A DNA stretch of 64,000 nucleotides from Abiotrophia defectiva ATCC 49176 (GTDB lineage: Bacteria; Bacillota; Bacilli; Lactobacillales; Aerococcaceae): positions 1,265,396 to 1,329,395 of the forward strand of contig NZ_KI535340.1 of the NCBI RefSeq assembly GCF_000160075.2. The letters are read 5' to 3'. Position 1 is the stretch's first letter. Each line of letters starts with the position of its first letter. A program made the translations under genes and the position numbers. The notes beneath the pieces are model-generated. The model worked only from the letters and a program-made list of their open reading frames with translations. It did no database searches and had not been told where the DNA came from. Positions 1 to 60,220 of the stretch are shown here, piece after piece.

Positions 1-3000
1 AGCACTAAGAAGGTACCGAATGTCGGGACCTATGTCATTGAATCAGATGGAACGATTACCTTCACACCAGAGAAACAATACGTTGGGACACCAGATCCTG
101 TAGTTGTAAAACGTGTTGACAAGAATGGGACTGAAGTGACGGCTACTTACACGCCAACCGTAACGAAAGTAACGCCAACTAGCACTGATGCCACATCGAA
201 TGGTGTTCAAGGCCAACCACAAACAGGGACACCAGTCTTCACACCAGGTGATGATGCTGTGCCAATCGACTTGGATAGTCCAATGACTTTCGAAGATGGG
301 CAGCCAACTAAGACGGTGCCAGGTGTCGGGGTCTACACCATCAACCCAGATGGTTCTGTCACCTTTACACCAGACAAACAATATGTTGGGACACCAGCAC
401 CAGTCACTGTTAAACGCGTGGACAAGAACGGTACTGAAGTCACCGCTAAGTACACCCCAACTGTGACCAAGGTAACGCCAACTAGTACTGATGCCACATC
501 GAACGGTGTTCAAGGCCAACCACAAAAGGGCACGCCAACTTTCACCGAAGGTGATCCATTGGTGCCACTTGATGATACCAAGCCAATGACCTTCGAGGAT
601 GGCTCAAGCACTAAGAAGGTGCCAAATGTCGGGACCTATGTCATTGAATCAGATGGTACGATTACTTTTACGCCAGACAAGCAATACGTTGGGACACCAG
701 CCCCTGTAGTCGTAAAACGTGTGGACAAGAATGGAACGGAAGTGACCGCTCAATACACGCCAACTGTGACCAAAGTGACTCCAACAAGCACTGACGCTAC
801 ATCGAACGGCGTTCAAGGCGTTCCACAAACAGGAACCCCAGTCTTCACACCAGGTGACTCAGCCGTGCCAATCGACTTGGATAGCCCAATGACCTTTGAA
901 GATGGGCAGCCAACTAAGACTGTGCCAGGTGTCGGTGTCTACACCATCAACCCAGATGGTTCCATCACTTTCACACCAGACAAGCAATACGTTGGGACAC
1001 CAGCCCCTGTAGTCGTAAAACGTGTGGACAAGAACGGGACTGAAGTGACCGCTCAATACACGCCAACTGTGACCAAAGTGACTCCAACAAGTACCAACGC
1101 AGAGTCAACTGGCGTTCAAGGCCAGCCACAAAAGGGCAAGCCAACATTCACCGAAGGTGATCCGTTGGTGCCGCTGGACGATACTAAACCGATGACTTTC
1201 GAAGACGGTTCAAGCACCAAGAAAGTGCCGAATGTCGGGACCTATGTCATTGAGTCTGATGGATCTATTACCTTCACGCCAGAGAAACAATATGTTGGAA
1301 CACCAGATCCTGTAGTTGTAAAACGTGTAGACAAGAACGGGACCGAAGTAACTGCTAAGTACACGCCAACCGTAACGAAAGTGACGCCAAGAAGTACTGA
1401 CGCTACATCAAACGGCGTTCAAGGTCAGCCACAAAAGGGCACACCAACTTTCACCGAGGGTGATCCATTGGTGCCACTTGATGATACCAAGCCAATGACC
1501 TTCGAGGATGGTTCAAGCACCAAGAAAGTCCCAAATGTCGGGACCTATGTCATTGAATCAGATGGTACGATTACCTATACGCCAGACAAGCAATACGTTG
1601 GGACGCCAGATCCTGTAGTTGTAAAACGCGTAGACAAGAACGGTACGGAAGTCACCGCTAAGTACACGCCAACTGTGACTAAGGTCACACCAACAAGTAC
1701 TGACGCCACATCGAACGGTGTTCAGGGTGTTCCACAAACCGGTACCCCAGTCTTCACGCCAGGTGACTCAGCCGTGCCAATTGATTTGGACAGCCCAATG
1801 ACCTTTGAAGACGGACAGCCAACCAAGGCGGTGCCAGGTGTCGGTGTTTACTCCATCAACCCAGATGGTTCCATCACTTTCACACCAGACAAGCAATATG
1901 TTGGGACGCCAGATCCAGTTGTGGTCAAACGTGTAGACAAGAACGGAACGGAAGTGACGGCTAAGTACACGCCAACTGTGACCAAAGTGACTCCAACAAG
2001 TACCAACGCAGAGTCAACTGGAGTTCAAGGCCAGCCACAAAAGGGTAAGCCAACATTCACCGAGGGTGATCCGTTGGTACCACTTGATGACGCTAAGCCA
2101 ATGACTTTCGAGGATGGCTCAAGCACCAAGAAAGTTCCAAATGTCGGGACCTATGTCATTGAGTCAGATGGCTCCATTACCTTTACTCCAGAGAAACAAT
2201 ATGTTGGAACACCAGACCCAGTTGTAGTCAAACGCGTTGACAAGAATGGAACGGAAGTGACTGCTCAATACACTCCAACTGTGACCAAAGTAACGCCAAC
2301 AAGTACTGATGCCACATCGAACGGTGTTCAGGGTGTTCCACAAACAGGGACCCCAGTCTTCACGCCAGGTGACTCAGCCGTGCCAATTGATTTGGACAGC
2401 CCAATGACCTTTGAAGACGGACAGCCAACTAAGACGTTGCCAGGTGTTGGTGTATACACCATCAACTCAGATGGCTCTGTCACCTTTACCCCAGACAAGC
2501 AATATGTGGGGACACCAGCCCCAGTCACTGTTAAGCGTGTAGACAAGAACGGAACGGAAGTGACGGCTAAGTACACTCCAACTGTGACCAAAGTGACGCC
2601 AACAAGCACTGACGCTACATCAAACGGCGTTCAGGGCATTCCACAAACCGGTACCCCAGTCTTTACACCAGGTGACTCAGCCGTGCCAATCGACTTGGAT
2701 AGCCCAATGACCTTCGAAGACGGTCAACCTACTAAGACTGTACCTGGTGTAGGTGAATACTCCATCAACCCAGATGGCTCTGTCACCTTTACCCCAGACA
2801 AGCAATATGTGGGGACACCGGATCCTGTAGTTGTAAAACGTGTTGACAAGAATGGTACAGAAGTAACTGCTAAGTACACGCCAACTGTGACAAGAGTAAC
2901 ACCAACTAGCACCAACGCGACCTCGGAAGGCCTACAAGGTCAGCCACAAAAGGGCACACCAACTTTCACCGAGGGCGATCCATTAGTGCCGCTTGATGAT

Positions 3001-6000
3001 ACCAAGCCAATGACCTTCGAGGATGGCTCAAGTACTAAGAAAGTGCCAAATGTCGGGACCTATGTCATTGAGTCAGATGGCTCTATTACCTTCACACCAG
3101 AGAAACAATATGTGGGAACACCAGATCCTGTAGTTGTAAAACGTGTGGACAAGAACGGTACTGAAGTGACTGCGAAGTACACGCCAACGGTAACGAAAGT
3201 GACGCCAACCAGCACTGATGCCACATCGAACGGTGTTCAGGGTGTTCCACAAACAGGGACCCCAGTCTTCACGCCAGGTGACTCAGCCGTGCCAATTGAT
3301 TTGGACAGCCCAATGACCTTTGAAGACGGACAGCCAACTAAGACTGTGCCAGGTGTTGGTGTATACACCATCAACTCAGATGGTTCGATTACCTTTACCC
3401 CAGACAAGCAGTATGTGGGGACACCGGCCCCAGTTACTGTTAAGCGTGTTGACAAGAACGGAACGGAAGTAACGGCGAAGTACACCCCAACTGTGACCAA
3501 AGTAACACCAACAAGTACTGACGCTACATCAAACGGCGTTCAGGGCACTCCACAAACAGGGACCCCAGTCTTTACACCTGGCGATCCAGCAGTACCAATC
3601 GACTTGGATAGCCCAATGACCTTCGAAGACGGTCAACCTACTAAGACTGTACCTGGTGTAGGTGAATACTCCATCAACCCAGATGGCTCTGTCACCTTTA
3701 CCCCAGACAAGCAGTATGTCGGGACACCAGCCCCAGTCACTGTTAAGCGTGTTGACAAGAACGGTACTGAAGTGACCGCTCAATACACGCCAACTGTGAC
3801 CAAGGTGACGCCAACAAGTACTGACGCTACATCGAACGGCGTTCAAGGCCAACCACAAAAGGGCACACCAACTTTCACCGAAGGTAATCCATTAGTACCA
3901 CTGGACGATGCTAAGCCAATGACCTTTGAGGATGGCTCAAGCAACAAGACTGTACCAAACGTTGGTGTCTACACCATCAACCCAGATGGTTCCATTACCT
4001 TTACCCCAGACAAGCAGTATGTTGGGACACCAGCCCCAGTCACCCTTAAACGTGTCGATAAGAACGGTACGGAAGTCACCGCAACATACACACCGACGGT
4101 GACGAAGGTAACGCCAACCAGCAGCCCGGCTACTTCAACTGGTCCACAAGGTCTTTCCCAAACTGGCAGCCCAGTCTTTACCCCAGGGGATCCGGCAGTG
4201 CCGATTGATCTGGATAGTCCAATGACCTTCGAAGATGGTCAACCTAAAAAGACAGTTCCAGGTGTAGGGGAATACTTTATCAATCCTGATGGCTCTATCA
4301 CTTTCACGCCGGACAAACAATATGTCGGAACTCCTGCGGCAGTAGTCGTCAAACGTGTCGATAAAAATGGTACGGAAGTGACCGCAACTTATACGCCGAC
4401 GGTGACCAAGGTAACGCCAACTTCTGAGGATGTCAGCTCAACTGGCCTTCAAGGTCAACCACAAACTGGTACGCCAACTTTCACCCCAGGTAACCCTGAG
4501 GTGCCAATGGATGACACGGTGCCAATGACCTTCGAAGATGGTTCAAGTACTAAGTCAGTTCCGGATGTGGGTGTTTACACCATCAACCCAGATGGATCCA
4601 TCACTTTCACACCAGACAAACAATTTGTAGGCAAACCAGATCCTGTAAGAGTCAAACGTGTCGATAAGAACGGCACCCCAGTGACCGCTGACTACCAAGT
4701 AGAAGTGACGCGCGTCACCCCAACCAGCACGCCTGCTACTTCGACCGGTCTACAAGGTCAACCACAAACTGGCAGCCCAGTCTTTAAAGAAGGGGCGCCA
4801 GAAGTTCCAATGGATGACAAGGTGCCAATGACCTTCGAAGATGGTTCAAGTACTAAGAAGGTGCCAAACGTGGGTGAATACACCATCAACCCAGATGGTT
4901 CCATTACTTTCACCCCAGACAAGCAATTTGTCGGGACACCAGATCCGGTAACAGTCAAGCGCGTGGACAAGAATGGTACGCCAGTGACTGCGACTTACAC
5001 GCCAACTGTGACCAAGGTAACGCCAACCAGCACGCCTGCTACTTCGACCGGTCTACAAGGTCAACCACAAACTGGCAGCCCAGTCTTCAAAGAAGGGGCG
5101 CCAGAAGTTCCAATGGATGACACGGTGCCAATGACCTTCGAAGATGGCTCAAGCACTAAGACGGTGCCAAACGTGGGTGAATACACCATCAACCCAGATG
5201 GCTCCATTACTTTCACCCCAGACAAGCAATTTGTCGGGACACCAGATCCGGTAACAGTCAAGCGCGTGGACAAGAATGGTACGCCAGTGACTGCGACTTA
5301 CACGCCAACTGTGACCAAGGTAACGCCAACCAGTACGCCAGCCACTTCAACTGGTCTGCAAGGTTTACCACAAACAGGTACCCCAAGCTTTAAAGAAGGG
5401 GCGCCAGAAGTTCCAATGGATGACAAGGTGCCAATGACCTTCGAAGATGGTTCAAGTACTAAGTCAGTACCAGGCGTAGGGGAATACACCATCAACCCAG
5501 ATGGTTCCATTACTTTCACCCCAGACAAGCAATTTGTCGGGACGCCAGATCAGGTAACAGCCAAGCGAGTGGATAAGAACGGCACCCCAGTGACGGCGAC
5601 TTACACGCCAACTGTGACCAAGGTAACGCCAACTAGCACGCCAGCGACTTCAACGGGAGCACAAGGCTTACCGCAAACAGCTAGCCCAAGCTTCACTCCA
5701 GGTGACCCAGCGGTGCCAATAGACGATACGATCCCAATGACCTTCGAAGACGGATCAAGCATTAAGTCCATTCCAGGAGTGGGTGAGTATGTCATCAACC
5801 CAGATGGCTCCATTACCTTCACGCCAGACAAGCAATTTGTCGGGACACCAGATCCAGTAACGGTTAAACGCGTTGATAAGAACGGCACGCCAGTGACCGC
5901 CACCTACCAAGCGACCGTTCTACCTGTGGCTCCAATTGCCAACGACGATTACTCTTCAGGTGTCGTTAACCAAGCCCAAACGGGTCAAGTTAAGTTTGTA

Positions 6001-6996
6001 CCAGGTTCTGCTAATGTTGACGGCACAGAACAATCCGTTGACTTAGTCCCAGGCAGCCTCAAGTTTGTGGTCAATGGCCAAGCCGTGGCTGACACCACTA
6101 TTCCAGCCCTAGACCAAGATGGCAAGCAAGTAGGGACCTACAGCTTAGCCCAAGACGGAACCGTGACCTTCACACCAAATCCAGGTTACGTGGGTCAACC
6201 AGTGTCAGCTCGTGTTCAAGCTACTGACGTCAACAGTACGACTGCGGAGGCAACTTACTCACCAGTGGTCAACGCTAGCGTAACTAGCGAAGGCATGAAG
6301 GGTCAAAGCCAAAGCAAGCTACCAGACTTCAAGGGCCAAGTGGATCCAAAAGTTCCAGCTTACCTTGAAGGTGGGGTCACTAGCGTGACCGTGCCAGGTC
6401 AAGGGACTTACACCGTCAACCCTGAGACAGGCCAAGTGACCTTCACGCCAGAACCAGACTTTATTGGCCAGGCAAGTCCAATTACGGTCATCCGTCGTGA
6501 TGTCAACGGGAAGGAACTGAAGATTCAGTACATCCCAACAGTATACGGACAAGTGAAGACACAAGATACGACTTCAACCGGCTACCCAGGCGAAAAACAA
6601 ACTGGGACGCCAGTCTTTGAAGGCGATGTGGATCTAACCATCCCAGCTACCTTCGAAAATGGTCAAACTGAATTAACCGTACCAGGGGAAGGGACTTATG
6701 TTCTTAACCCAGATGGTTCTGTGACCTTCACGCCAGAAGCAGGCTTCTTAGGCCAAGCAAGTGGTGTGACCGTAGTTCGGGTTGACCGCAACGGGCGCAA
6801 GGTGACCGCACAATATGTGCCAACCGTTGTGCCAGTGCCAGTCGCTCCAAGTGAGCCAGAGGTGCAAAGACAAGGGCTCTTACCAGCAACTGGTGAAGCC
6901 CCAGACTATAGCTTCTTCTCAGGTGTGGCCTTGACTATCTTAGCAAGTGTCGGCCTAGTTGCAACGCGCAAGCGCCAAGCGACAGATGAAGACTAA
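1..6996 (+). CDS. CshA-type fibril LPXTG surface protein (5' end outside window)
   Basis: This is the C-terminal 2,331 residues of a cell-wall-anchored fibrillar adhesin; the frame is open from base 1, so the N-terminal signal and binding region lie upstream. It holds 19 consecutive repeats of exactly 101 residues, each with the CshA fibril-repeat pattern (VTPTS, MTFEDG, NPDGSVTFTPDKQYVG, VKRVDKNGT). Three more divergent modules follow, then the sorting signal LPATG, a hydrophobic segment and a basic tail ending RKRQATDED. Known CshA repeats build peritrichous fibrils in oral streptococci that mediate adhesion and coaggregation. Two alternating repeat flavours occur (VFTPGD with DLDSP, and TFTEGD with LDDTK), grading into a third (VPMDD) near the wall. 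The gene ends at a strong hairpin terminator. The family call is firm; the ligand is unknown. Confidence 0.93.
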   Translation, partial: STKKVPNVGTYVIESDGTITFTPEKQYVGTPDPVVVKRVDKNGTEVTATYTPTVTKVTPTSTDATSNGVQGQPQTGTPVFTPGDDAVPIDLDSPMTFEDGQPTKTVPGVGVYTINPDGSVTFTPDKQYVGTPAPVTVKRVDKNGTEVTAKYTPTVTKVTPTSTDATSNGVQGQPQKGTPTFTEGDPLVPLDDTKPMTFEDGSSTKKVPNVGTYVIESDGTITFTPDKQYVGTPAPVVVKRVDKNGTEVTAQYTPTVTKVTPTSTDATSNGVQGVPQTGTPVFTPGDSAVPIDLDSPMTFEDGQPTKTVPGVGVYTINPDGSITFTPDKQYVGTPAPVVVKRVDKNGTEVTAQYTPTVTKVTPTSTNAESTGVQGQPQKGKPTFTEGDPLVPLDDTKPMTFEDGSSTKKVPNVGTYVIESDGSITFTPEKQYVGTPDPVVVKRVDKNGTEVTAKYTPTVTKVTPRSTDATSNGVQGQPQKGTPTFTEGDPLVPLDDTKPMTFEDGSSTKKVPNVGTYVIESDGTITYTPDKQYVGTPDPVVVKRVDKNGTEVTAKYTPTVTKVTPTSTDATSNGVQGVPQTGTPVFTPGDSAVPIDLDSPMTFEDGQPTKAVPGVGVYSINPDGSITFTPDKQYVGTPDPVVVKRVDKNGTEVTAKYTPTVTKVTPTSTNAESTGVQGQPQKGKPTFTEGDPLVPLDDAKPMTFEDGSSTKKVPNVGTYVIESDGSITFTPEKQYVGTPDPVVVKRVDKNGTEVTAQYTPTVTKVTPTSTDATSNGVQGVPQTGTPVFTPGDSAVPIDLDSPMTFEDGQPTKTLPGVGVYTINSDGSVTFTPDKQYVGTPAPVTVKRVDKNGTEVTAKYTPTVTKVTPTSTDATSNGVQGIPQTGTPVFTPGDSAVPIDLDSPMTFEDGQPTKTVPGVGEYSINPDGSVTFTPDKQYVGTPDPVVVKRVDKNGTEVTAKYTPTVTRVTPTSTNATSEGLQGQPQKGTPTFTEGDPLVPLDDTKPMTFEDGSSTKKVPNVGTYVIESDGSITFTPEKQYVGTPDPVVVKRVDKNGTEVTAKYTPTVTKVTPTSTDATSNGVQGVPQTGTPVFTPGDSAVPIDLDSPMTFEDGQPTKTVPGVGVYTINSDGSITFTPDKQYVGTPAPVTVKRVDKNGTEVTAKYTPTVTKVTPTSTDATSNGVQGTPQTGTPVFTPGDPAVPIDLDSPMTFEDGQPTKTVPGVGEYSINPDGSVTFTPDKQYVGTPAPVTVKRVDKNGTEVTAQYTPTVTKVTPTSTDATSNGVQGQPQKGTPTFTEGNPLVPLDDAKPMTFEDGSSNKTVPNVGVYTINPDGSITFTPDKQYVGTPAPVTLKRVDKNGTEVTATYTPTVTKVTPTSSPATSTGPQGLSQTGSPVFTPGDPAVPIDLDSPMTFEDGQPKKTVPGVGEYFINPDGSITFTPDKQYVGTPAAVVVKRVDKNGTEVTATYTPTVTKVTPTSEDVSSTGLQGQPQTGTPTFTPGNPEVPMDDTVPMTFEDGSSTKSVPDVGVYTINPDGSITFTPDKQFVGKPDPVRVKRVDKNGTPVTADYQVEVTRVTPTSTPATSTGLQGQPQTGSPVFKEGAPEVPMDDKVPMTFEDGSSTKKVPNVGEYTINPDGSITFTPDKQFVGTPDPVTVKRVDKNGTPVTATYTPTVTKVTPTSTPATSTGLQGQPQTGSPVFKEGAPEVPMDDTVPMTFEDGSSTKTVPNVGEYTINPDGSITFTPDKQFVGTPDPVTVKRVDKNGTPVTATYTPTVTKVTPTSTPATSTGLQGLPQTGTPSFKEGAPEVPMDDKVPMTFEDGSSTKSVPGVGEYTINPDGSITFTPDKQFVGTPDQVTAKRVDKNGTPVTATYTPTVTKVTPTSTPATSTGAQGLPQTASPSFTPGDPAVPIDDTIPMTFEDGSSIKSIPGVGEYVINPDGSITFTPDKQFVGTPDPVTVKRVDKNGTPVTATYQATVLPVAPIANDDYSSGVVNQAQTGQVKFVPGSANVDGTEQSVDLVPGSLKFVVNGQAVADTTIPALDQDGKQVGTYSLAQDGTVTFTPNPGYVGQPVSARVQATDVNSTTAEATYSPVVNASVTSEGMKGQSQSKLPDFKGQVDPKVPAYLEGGVTSVTVPGQGTYTVNPETGQVTFTPEPDFIGQASPITVIRRDVNGKELKIQYIPTVYGQVKTQDTTSTGYPGEKQTGTPVFEGDVDLTIPATFENGQTELTVPGEGTYVLNPDGSVTFTPEAGFLGQASGVTVVRVDRNGRKVTAQYVPTVVPVPVAPSEPEVQRQGLLPATGEAPDYSFFSGVALTILASVGLVATRKRQATDED
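148..5904 (+). repeat. 19 tandem 303-bp coding repeats
   Basis: Nineteen units of exactly 303 bp run from the first Tyr codon at 148 to 5904 with no indels (19 x 303 = 5,757 bp). A partial unit precedes them at the window edge. Upstream units are the most alike; those from about 4,100 onward diverge. The array makes long spurious antisense reading frames. Confidence 0.95.
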
Positions 6997-7015
6997 AATC
7001 TAGTCAGATAAGACC

Positions 7016-7050
7016 AGCCCCAGCTTTCATTCGAGAGCTGGGGCTTCTTA
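7016..7050 (+). terminator. Terminator of the fibril protein gene
   Basis: A perfect 10-bp stem (AGCCCCAGCT at 7016-7025 with AGCTGGGGCT at 7036-7045) is followed by a T-rich tail. Confidence 0.85.
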
Positions 7051-7065
7051 TTTTGAAAATTAGGC

Positions 7066-7093
7066 TTGCATTCTGAGAAAAAAGGTGTATAAT
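7066..7093 (+). promoter_or_regulatory. Promoter of the trp leader and trpB
   Basis: TTGCAT (7066-7071) and a perfect TATAAT (7088-7093) are separated by 16 bp, about 35 bp upstream of the leader-peptide start. Confidence 0.7.
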
Positions 7094-7127
7094 GAGAATC
7101 AAATGAGAGAGAAGGAGGGCATTCGCC

Positions 7128-7172
7128 ATGACATTTACAGCAACTCAAAGTTGGCAAAGCTGGCATAGATAA
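7128..7172 (+). CDS. trpL: trp leader peptide (14 aa, two Trp codons)
   Basis: A short reading frame, ATG at 7128 to TAA at 7170-7172, has a strong ribosome-binding site (AAGGAGG at 7112-7118, 9 bp away). It encodes MTFTATQSWQSWHR, with Trp codons at 7152-7154 and 7161-7163. It begins right after a good promoter and is followed by a set of competing hairpins ending in an intrinsic terminator before trpB. This is the architecture of a leader peptide for ribosome-mediated transcription attenuation, in which stalling at Trp codons reports low charged tRNA-Trp. Expression of the peptide is inferred, not shown. Confidence 0.8.
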   Translation: MTFTATQSWQSWHR

Positions 7173-7296
7173 GTTGTGTGTATGTTCTGGAACATAGATG
7201 CAACTTTTAGCGTAGTCTAAGATGCATCTATGTTGGCGAATTTGTTCCCGATCAGGAGATTAAGAGCCGCATAGTCGCTACTATGTGGCTCTTTTT
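7173..7296 (+). promoter_or_regulatory. trp attenuator: alternative hairpins and terminator
   Basis: Five segments can pair in exclusive ways. Segment 1 (7173-7186, GTTGTGTGTATGTT) pairs with segment 2 (7191-7204, AACATAGATGCAAC). Segment 2 also pairs perfectly over 12 bp with segment 3 (7223-7234, TGCATCTATGTT). Segment 3 and its flank (7228-7237) can pair with segment 4 (7266-7274, GCCGCATAG). Segments 4 and 5 (7263-7274 with 7281-7292) form a 12-bp terminator followed by five T. Inferred logic: a ribosome at the stop codon (7170-7172) covers segment 1, so 2:3 forms and the terminator forms. A ribosome stalled at the Trp codons leaves segment 1 free, so 1:2 forms, segment 3 pairs with 4, and transcription continues into trpB. 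There is no T-box motif here. Confidence 0.75.
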
Positions 7297-7358
7297 GTAT
7301 CTTAGCTAGCTTTGACTTTTGATCAGATAGACAAGCAAAATTAGAGGAGGAACCCCTT

Positions 7359-8570
7359 ATGACACAAGAATTAACACAAACACCAACAGGCTTTTTCGGA
7401 GAATTTGGCGGTAGCTATGTACCACCAGTTGTACAAGAAGCCTTGGACCAATTAGCGGAAGCCTATGACCGCTACAAGGATGATCCAGAATTTCTGGCTG
7501 AATACCACCATTATCTCAAGGACTACTCAGGTCGTGAGACCCCACTCTACTATGCGGAGAGTTTGACCCAACATTTGGGCGGGGCTAAGATTTACCTCAA
7601 GCGTGAAGACCTCAACCACTTGGGGGCCCACAAACTTAACAACGTCATCGGGCAAATCCTATTGGCTAAACGCATGGGTAAGAAGAAGGTCATTGCTGAA
7701 ACGGGGGCTGGCCAACACGGGGTGGCGACTGCTGCTGCGGCGGCCAAGTTCGGCATGTCTTGTGACATCTACATGGGGGCTCTAGACGTGGAACGTCAGC
7801 GTCTCAATGTCTTCCGTATGGAAATGCTGGGGGCCACCGTTCATGCTGTGCAAGAAGGGGAACGAACCCTCAAGGAAGCCGTTGACGCTGCCTTTGGCGC
7901 ATGGATTCAAGGCATTGAGGATACCTTCTATGTCCTAGGTTCTGCTGTGGGCCCTCATCCTTATCCTTCCATGGTCAAGGACTTCCAGAAGGTCATTAGC
8001 CAAGAAGCTCGTCGTCAGATTCTGGAAAAAGAAGGGCGCCTGCCTGACATGGTCATTGCCTGTGTGGGGGGCGGCTCCAATGCCATCGGGGCCTTTGCTG
8101 AATTCTTACCTGATAGCCAGGTAGCCCTAGTGGGGGTTGAAGCAGCTGGCCATGGTCTCCAGACCGACCGTCATGCCGCGACCTTGACCCTGGGGACTGT
8201 CGGGGTTGTGGATGGCATGAAGACCTATGCCCTTTTCAATGAAGATGGCTCAGTCATGCCAGTCTATTCCATCTCGCCAGGGCTGGACTATCCTGGGGTA
8301 GGGCCAGAACATGCCTATCTCAAAGATGCAGGCCGGGCTAAATATGTGCCAGCAACGGATGCCGAAGCTGTTCAGGCCCTCTTACTCTTAACCCGTCTGG
8401 AAGGCATTATTCCAGCTATTGAGAGCTCTCACGCCCTAGCGGAAGTCATTAAACGTGCCCCTCAGATGTCACCTGATCAAATCATTATCGTCAATGTCTC
8501 TGGTCGTGGGGACAAGGACGTGGCAGCCATTGCCGACTACCTGCAAGCTCACCCAGAACTCAAATTATAA
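7359..8570 (+). CDS. trpB: Tryptophan synthase beta chain
   Basis: TrpB condenses indole with L-serine to form L-tryptophan using pyridoxal phosphate, normally in an alpha2beta2 complex with TrpA. The 403-residue protein is full length. It shows the PLP lysine in HLGAHKLNN (Lys92), the catalytic Glu in ETGAGQH (114-120) and the phosphate-binding loop GGGSNA (237-242). The start has an AGAGGAGG ribosome-binding site. No other trp gene adjoins: a fibril gene lies upstream, and a strong terminator plus an opposing operon lie downstream. The gene is therefore monocistronic and could serve indole salvage, or pair with a TrpA encoded elsewhere. Expression is probably controlled by the attenuator just upstream. 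Confidence 0.97.
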
Positions 8571-46949: not shown

Positions 46950-47184
46950 ACATAAGAGACGATGAAGAGAAGGGGTTCAACCGACTAATCCAGAGAGGAA
47001 GCCTCAGGCTGAAAGCTTCCACAGGATGAACCAAGTAGCTCAGAGTATCAGGTGCCAACGACAGCCCACTGTCCAGTAGTCACTGACGGAGGAGACACTC
47101 CGATAGCAACAGACGAGTGATAAACTTAGGTGGTACCGCAACTTAGCTCGCCCTAGGCAGCCTTGTGCTGACTAGGGCGAGTTT
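46950..47184 (+). promoter_or_regulatory. T-box leader 1 (valine type), upstream of the ATPase gene
   Basis: A complete T-box architecture is visible: GATGAAGAG kink-turn region, AGAGAGGAAGC distal stem, the probable specifier GTA (47035-47037) below the GGTTCA/TGAACC helix, AGGTGGTACCGC T-box bulge (about 47129-47140), and competing terminator CTCGCCCTA/TAGGGCGAG (47147-47155 with 47173-47181). GTA specifies valine. The terminator is followed by only three T, and a TATAAT stands at 47202-47207, so the switch may be leaky or decayed. Confidence 0.85.
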
Positions 47185-48024: not shown

Positions 48025-48039
48025 AACTATATCACATAA

Positions 48040-48268
48040 CTAACGATGAAGAGAGTCGGTTCACCGCCCACCCCAGAGAGGAAGCCATCGGCTGCAAGCT
48101 TCCATAGGATGAACCCAGTAGCTCAGAGTATCAGGTGCCAACGGCCCCAGGCCCAGTAGTCCCTGACGGAGGAGGCACTCCGATAGCAACAGATGAGTAA
48201 CAAAACTTAGGTGGTACCGCGAGACCCTCGCCCTAGGCAGCAACAGGCTGACTAGGGCGAGTTTTTTC
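48040..48268 (+). promoter_or_regulatory. T-box leader 2 (valine) of valS
   Basis: It has the same architecture as leader 1 and high similarity throughout: GATGAAGAG, AGAGAGGAAGC, probable specifier GTA (48118-48120), AGGTGGTACCGCG (48209-48221) and terminator CTCGCCCTA/TAGGGCGAG (48227-48235 with 48253-48261) with six T. Uncharged tRNA-Val should stabilise the antiterminator and switch on valS. The TGGT bulge fits the ACCA end of tRNA-Val. Confidence 0.92.
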
Positions 48269-52613: not shown

Positions 52614-52667
52614 ATTATATATAAAATTAAATTACAAAAACCGGTACCGAAATTTGTCGAAAAAAAT

Positions 52668-52697
52668 AAAGCGATGGAAGCTCCATCGCTTTTTGTG
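52668..52697. terminator. Bidirectional terminator between folC and csp
   Basis: A 10-bp stem (AAAGCGATGG at 52668-52677 with CCATCGCTTT at 52683-52692) with A and T tracts on both sides. Confidence 0.83.
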
Positions 52698-52709
52698 TGT
52701 TAATTGGCA

Positions 52710-52913
52710 TTAAGCTAATTTTTCAACATTTGCTGCTTGAGGACCACGAGCGCCTTCTTCAACTTCGAAGTTAACAACTTGGCCTTCTTCTAAGGTCTTA
52801 TAGCCCTCACCCAAAATAGCAGAAAAGTGAACGAATACATCGTTGCCGTTTTCGCGTTCGATAAAACCGAAGCCTTTTTCTGAGTTAAACCATTTTACCT
52901 TACCTTGCTCCAT
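52710..52913 (-). CDS. Cold-shock protein (second copy)
   Basis: This 67-residue CspA-family protein has KGFGFI and VFVHF intact. It starts [10 protein letters not shown], the more typical form of the two csp genes in the window. AAGGAGG precedes the ATG. A promoter with a 16-bp spacer (TTGCAA at 53040-53045, TATAAT at 53018-53023, minus strand) gives a 5' leader of about 100 nt, as expected for cold-inducible genes. Confidence 0.97.
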
Positions 52914-53017
52914 TATGCAATTCCTCCTTGTGCTGTCGCACAGTCTATATTATATTCTAGCCGTCGTTAGAAGGTGATAGGGACATCGCGATCTTACTAA
53001 ACATAAAATATAACTTT

Positions 53018-53045
53018 ATTATAGCACTCACTATACAAATTGCAA
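53018..53045 (-). promoter_or_regulatory. Promoter of the second csp gene
   Basis: TTGCAA and extended TGCTATAAT with a 16-bp spacer on the minus strand. Confidence 0.65.
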
Positions 53046-60101: not shown

Positions 60102-60220
60102 TGTTTATGTGTAGCACCACATCTGCAACCGCGCAAGTTGAGTCTAAGCGCCAGTTCTGGCCACTTAACATGGCGAGTCTAAGTGCAGGGGATCAACCCC
60201 GAAAGAAAAATAAAGGAGGT
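60102..60220 (+). promoter_or_regulatory. L21 leader RNA
   Basis: A structured leader of about 120 nt lies between promoter and rplU, with paired segments such as GTCTAAGCGCC near 60142-60152 and GGCGAGTCTAAG near 60173-60184. Its position matches the conserved L21 leader of Firmicutes, thought to mediate autoregulation. Confidence 0.6.

Follow-up and report, generated by a model that had tools for sequence, protein, structure and literature searches.

A Putative Ribosome-Mediated Tryptophan Attenuator with Six Pairing Segments Upstream of trpB in Abiotrophia defectiva

The analyzed window, a stretch of 64,000 nucleotides of contig NZ_KI535340.1 from Abiotrophia defectiva ATCC 49176, carries on its plus strand the gene trpB for the tryptophan synthase beta subunit (7359–8570; TIGR00263, 617 bits). 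The gene forms a single-gene unit, as the next gene is located on the other strand. Between trpB and the end of a giant surface-protein gene at position 6996 lies a leader of approximately 200 nt. The surface-protein frame (window 1–6996) is repetitive, comprises more than 2300 residues, is open at its start and ends with an LPATG-type anchor and a membrane tail. The leader region, also on the plus strand, has a promoter-like sequence (7066–7093) consisting of TTGCAT (7066–7071), a spacer of 16 nt and a perfect −10 element TATAAT (7088–7093). A simple consensus promoter scan did not list this promoter because its −35 element is weak. The Shine-Dalgarno sequence AAGGAGG (7112–7118) is strong, as in the relatives, and serves a leader peptide frame of 14 codons, MTFTATQSWQSWHR (7128–7172), which is conserved in relatives. 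Trp codons are found at 7152–7154 and 7161–7163, and the stop codon TAA (7170–7172) directly abuts the first of a series of pairing segments.

These segments, all on the plus strand, are segment 1 (7173–7186), segment 2 (7191–7204), segment 3 (7223–7237), segment 4 (7262–7275, of which 7266–7274 pairs with segment 3) and segment 5 (7280–7293). The last merges into a U-tract (7292–7296), and 4:5 forms the intrinsic terminator (7262–7296). Each segment is supported by pairing in the window and by the swap test described below, and segment 2 additionally by Rfam. Computed energies in the window were −19.3 kcal/mol for 1:2 (7173–7186/7191–7204, 13 of 14 pairs), −18.9 kcal/mol for 2:3 (7191–7202/7223–7234, 12 pairs), −11.4 kcal/mol for 3:4 (7228–7237/7266–7274) and −22.8 kcal/mol for 4:5 (7262–7275/7280–7293, 14 pairs, then TTTTT). 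A preliminary description of this DNA had proposed a promoter, a ribosome-binding site, a frame with Trp codons, a stop codon just before segment 1, five segments and an intrinsic terminator. Direct reading of the sequence recovered all of these elements. The five segments are real, but the switch has six, since segment 0 (GCTGGCATAGAT, 7159–7170) had been overlooked. It is the 3' terminal part of the leader frame, in which the second Trp codon lies, and pairs with segment 3 (7226–7237) through 12 contiguous pairs at a computed −15.9 kcal/mol. Segment 2 can therefore pair with 1 or 3, and segment 3 with 0, 2 or 4. Seven terminator-like sites were counted in 6800–7600, where 0.6 are expected. 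The fold of the whole leader was 5.35 standard deviations below dinucleotide shuffles, and none of 200 shuffles was as stable. Judged against 175 relatives, all of these elements go beyond what chance would give.

Positions 7191–7301 of the plus strand are a member of the Rfam family RF04312, 'trpB ncRNA motif', with 65.9 bits over the full model length (1–107) and above the gathering cut-off of 59. This was the only match at the leader among 4227 Rfam families; RF02863 was not detected, and an Escherichia-type leader was rejected as there was no match to Trp_leader. Elsewhere in the window a cspA thermoregulator (52663–53022, minus strand) and an L21 leader (60117–60190, plus strand) matched above the Rfam cut-off. 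RF04312 corresponds to SRC-39-1, the trpB motif, which was presented by Narunsky et al. in 2024 among strong riboswitch candidates (PMC11109978). More than 900 members were reported from Firmicutes and Fusobacteria, mostly upstream of an amino-acid ABC transporter; the ligand was unknown as published, and a classic attenuator was remarked as not ruled out (PMC11109978). The window locus shares with the published motif the two hairpins and the presence of trpB or an amino-acid transporter downstream. In contrast, the published description, which classifies the motif as a riboswitch candidate, covers neither segments 0 and 1 nor the leader frame. The RF04312 model begins at segment 2 and does not include these parts. 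The RNA core was known beforehand as RF04312, minus its leader frame. A literature search, beyond whose reach lay most subscription papers and bioRxiv, found no paper that connects a leader peptide with the trpB motif. As the frame upstream is not used in finding relatives, its conservation constitutes independent evidence.

Of 76 genomes from the family to which the window belongs, 46 had RF04312 matches, as did 210 of the 395 genomes sampled from the order. From the Lactobacillales 177 loci were retrieved, of which 175 were genuine; L272 and L290 were rejected as false model matches, namely tandem terminators without a leader. The leader start codon was chosen by Shine-Dalgarno strength, and Trp content was not used. 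Nevertheless, 170 of the 175 genuine loci showed Trp codons in a leader frame preceded by a Shine-Dalgarno sequence. Phe/Tyr codons (FYFSYFR) replaced Trp in 4 of the 175, upstream of a TrpX paralogue, and at L251 the frame WQSW was intact with ATT replacing the ATG start. The conserved TGG was in frame with the ATG of the best Shine-Dalgarno sequence in 142 of 148 loci, compared with an expected one third. Leaders were 11–29 residues long, and Trp accounted for 8.8% of residues in 99 non-redundant leaders. In 77 of 89 leaders the first Trp codon was located 20–21 nt upstream of segment 1, although the position of the stop codon varied by 25 nt (between −30 and −5, counted from the motif). The residues between the Trp codons were variable (WQSW, WQNW, WRNW, WHSW, WNSW, WQFW). 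Streptococcus minor, S. phocae and S. pseudoporcinus carry WQNWHR or WQSWHR leaders; the scan of named genomes used a 15-base pattern, which is too short, and its matches were mostly due to chance. The genes downstream of the RF04312 loci are for the most part trpX, which stands for a tryptophan transporter, or trpB: we found one TrpX-like substrate-binding cluster (162 loci), trpB (6 loci) and a few other genes. The TrpX-like protein of locus L036 scored 477 bits against the TrpX model with its cut-off of 390. At L287 and L293 a leader ending in SFWWSTTPSV precedes an OppA-like peptide-binding protein, and the region of segment 2 looks rearranged. In two genomes (L031, L361) a group II intron-type reverse transcriptase frame is located just 3' of the attenuator.

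The pairings were analyzed by a swap test, in which the duplex energy of a leader's own segment pair was compared with that of the same segment and the partners from other leaders. A duplex test was chosen because the register shift between one-Trp and two-Trp leaders blurs column pair counts for 0:3. The sample comprised 99 non-redundant leaders with less than 80% identity. The strongest signal was obtained for 4:5 (own −18.7 versus swapped −12.1 kcal/mol, t −21.1, own better in 98 of 99), followed by 1:2 (−11.8 versus −9.0 kcal/mol, t −13.0, 89 of 99) and 0:3 (−13.7 versus −10.9 kcal/mol, t −11.4, 85 of 99). For 2:3 the values were −14.7 versus −12.3 kcal/mol (t −8.0, 99 leaders) and for 3:4 −13.3 versus −11.7 kcal/mol (t −7.1, 74 of 99). 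These t values are descriptive, related sequences not being independent, and the flat controls are the safeguard: the pairs 0:1, 0:2, 0:4, 1:3, 1:4, 2:4 and 3:5 gave no swap signal in the 99 leaders (t −1.2 to 1.7). In the same sample 1:5 and 2:5 yielded t near −2, and 0:5 showed a slight signal (t −4.0), which results from the resemblance of segment 0 to segment 4. A common ancestry of segments 0, 2 and 4 may account for part of the 0:3 signal. Double changes that preserve pairing were found in 0:3, 1:2, 2:3 and 4:5. By partner swaps and pair counts, the mutually exclusive antiterminator and intrinsic terminator are kept in relatives. The preliminary description had suggested an alignment of relatives as a check for conserved Trp codons and the pairings 1:2, 2:3, 3:4 and 4:5; the counts of 170 of 175 loci and the partner swaps bear out both.

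The genome contains only one PF04392 (TrpX-type) gene, a trpX homologue on the minus strand (L375, C1:1555049–1555909). It is preceded by a second Trp leader, MFQSQTQATKYWQFWHR followed by a stop codon (ATG at C1:1556268), with the same segment order. Rfam did not detect this second leader at E values up to 1. The two tryptophan-acquisition genes found in this genome, trpB and trpX, seem to share one regulatory design. Genes for trpA, IGPS/trpC and TRAP were not found in the 99% complete genome.

Leaders with Phe/Tyr codons were sought by a DNA pattern of these codons in 395 genomes of the order. The pattern was found in 77 of the 395 genomes and its backward control in 2; a leader was present in 38 of 40 inspected loci. 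The TrpX paralogue behind these leaders makes up a single clade with 18 members (100/99 support), separate from all Trp-leader TrpX proteins; the single exception is the mislabelled L251 with its frame WQSW. At L326, L341 and L344 the Phe/Tyr leader is followed by aroE. Phe/Tyr leaders match RF02863, 'Enterococcus sRNA 2410', with up to 145 bits. The family is known from an RNA of 195 nt that was confirmed in E. faecium by Northern blot (PMC5593968), and this size would fit a terminated leader. Segments 0 and 3 of the two codon classes gave −13.7 kcal/mol (Trp) and −15.8 kcal/mol (Phe/Tyr) when combined within their class; the crossed combinations gave −9.9 kcal/mol (Trp segment 0, Phe/Tyr segment 3) and −7.6 kcal/mol (Phe/Tyr segment 0, Trp segment 3). 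Judging by these energies, segment 3 changes in step with the codon run, so that 0:3 survives. In the Phe/Tyr leaders (L309–L348) the 4:5 hairpin lacks a U-tract. Behind it comes an extra alternative pairing 5:6 (t −3.9, 19 of 25), after which a U-tract terminator was found in 25 of 25. The additional pairing and terminator would keep the sense of the switch.

A sample from a clostridial family contributed 38 weaker RF04312 matches, which lie below the Rfam cut-off, and their kinship therefore rests on the shared segment plan. Runs of three or four His codons occurred in seven of these leaders (L298, L363, L367, L368, L370–L372), and hisS/hisZ was located downstream in 7 of 7. Leu runs were found in seven others (L302, L349, L351, L352, L355, L357, L358), all seven upstream of one sodium-symporter transporter subtype. 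Clostridial Phe/Tyr runs stand upstream of other transporters. Leaders with VVFSSQFR-like ends were observed upstream of an ABC permease (PF02653) at L354, L362, L369 and L374. Throughout the sequences compared, the codons track the gene: Trp with trpB or trpX, Phe/Tyr with the TrpX paralogue or aroE, His with hisS/hisZ and Leu with the transporter.

These results bear on the proposal of the discoverers of the trpB motif that the RNA binds an amino-acid related ligand and thereby switches the terminator. The motif was published as a strong riboswitch candidate on the basis of a conserved hairpin and terminator (PMC11109978), and segments 2 and 3 do have conserved letters. However, what is conserved is a series of hairpins that exclude one another and leave no obvious space for a binding pocket. 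Nearly everywhere tested, a translated frame whose codons match the gene is located upstream, and segment 3 and the codon run change together. We consequently regard a metabolite riboswitch as highly improbable. The evidence argues for reclassifying the trpB motif, an orphan riboswitch candidate as published, as putative leader-peptide attenuation.

The preliminary description had proposed a peptide attenuator in place of the usual T-box or TRAP, and the two systems were tested and found not to be involved. In a T-box, uncharged tRNA-Trp would bind the leader RNA directly. Such control of trpX has been described in Streptococcus suis (PMC9382623), and the A. defectiva genome has 16 T-box matches. 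None of these 16 RF00230 sites is at the trpB leader (C1:1272586), where the Rfam search yielded RF04312 and no T-box, and the leader, about 200 nt long and with an open frame, shows no match to stem I. T-box control of this leader was accordingly rejected, its probability being close to nil. Two T-box-like matches below the Rfam cut-off are located further downstream in the window on the plus strand (46953–47158, E 1e-9; 48037–48238, E 1e-12, both when the A. defectiva genome was searched). TRAP control was likewise rejected. No PF02081 match to TRAP (mtrB) was obtained in the 99% complete genome, while the B. subtilis control was detected. The leader contains eleven [GT]AG triplets, which are scattered unevenly over 7105–7272, whereas TRAP expects about eleven evenly spaced G/UAG triplets.

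The trpB leader is thus very probably a ribosome-mediated transcription attenuator that would turn trpB on when charged tRNA-Trp is scarce. The conserved Trp frame and the pairings support this class of mechanism, which had already been put forward in the preliminary description. Anatomy, conservation, pairings and the codon-gene match are observed; how the steps follow one another and how the leader would respond to tryptophan we infer as follows. With no ribosome on the leader, 2:3, or 0:3 around 1:2, would form together with the terminator 4:5. A ribosome stalled on the first Trp codon, 20–21 nt before segment 1, would cover segment 0 and leave segment 1 free. Formation of 1:2 would then leave segment 3 for segment 4, and the polymerase would pass before 4:5 pairs, resulting in read-through. 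A ribosome reaching the stop codon would cover segments 0 and 1, allowing 2:3 to form and 4:5 to terminate.

This order agrees with a folding sweep, in which a ribosome was set at each codon and the RNA was truncated behind segment 4, the point at which the outcome is decided. Pairing of 3:4 peaked with the A site 3 to 6 codons before the stop, which corresponds to the Trp codons, and 2:3 dominated at the stop. At least four predicted 3:4 pairs were obtained in 92 of 99 leaders with the ribosome at Trp, in 34–45 at the stop and in 37 without ribosome. About one third of the leaders keep 3:4 pairs at the stop or without ribosome, which counts against the model. In the window, 2:3 is favored as soon as the ribosome stands at the second Trp codon, and the first Trp codon alone lies clearly within the zone of antitermination; therefore, only the first Trp may count. 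The equilibrium fold of the full window leader always prefers the terminator, and hence antitermination must be kinetic. The least certain part of this model is what 0:3 specifically does. In a variant of the attenuator, which does not exclude the reading given here, the five segments of the preliminary description suffice and 0:3 has no role. The window fold without ribosome agrees with it, as it uses 2:3 and not 0:3, yet terminates. Against this, the swap test gives 0:3 a signal of its own (85 of 99, t −11.4), and the pairing survives the change of codon class. We consider the five-segment variant rather unlikely and an active role of segment 0 in pairing with segment 3 fairly likely.

The sequence evidence offers an answer to what the trpB motif senses, which is directly testable by codon swaps. 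It would add ribosome-mediated Trp attenuation to the lactic acid bacteria, where T-boxes or TRAP are expected. Furthermore, leader codons allow substrates to be predicted for transporters whose annotation is poor, such as Phe/Tyr in the case of the TrpX paralogue behind the Phe/Tyr leaders.

Compared with known systems, the locus appears to be a well-conserved variant of leader-peptide attenuation. The attenuator of the Escherichia coli trp operon, trpL, has four segments with the Trp codons inside segment 1. In both, a short leader contains two Trp codons and is combined with hairpins that exclude one another and an intrinsic terminator, with read-through on Trp starvation as proposed for the window. 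In contrast to trpL, the window switch has six segments, and its codons are located upstream of and inside segment 0, which pairs with segment 3. Among Firmicutes, His leader attenuators have been predicted in Peptostreptococcaceae, Erysipelotrichales and the B. cereus group (PMC9413887), and hisS/hisZ His attenuators in bacilli (PMC2965389). These resemble the present leaders in that a His-codon run in the leader is combined with a terminator/antiterminator; the accessible part of the former paper makes no link to the trpB motif or to Trp and Phe/Tyr leaders (PMC9413887). RF02863, Enterococcus sRNA 2410, has the same scaffold with Phe/Tyr codons. It differs in its U-less 4:5 hairpin with a further terminator and was described as an sRNA of unknown role (PMC5593968). 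RF04312 and RF02863 probably constitute one Bacillota superfamily of leader-peptide attenuators, a hairpin chain of six and in some cases eight segments in which the codons that act as sensor (Trp, Phe/Tyr, His, Leu) switch together with the gene, segment 3 changing in step, and which would be the translated counterpart of the T-box specifier.
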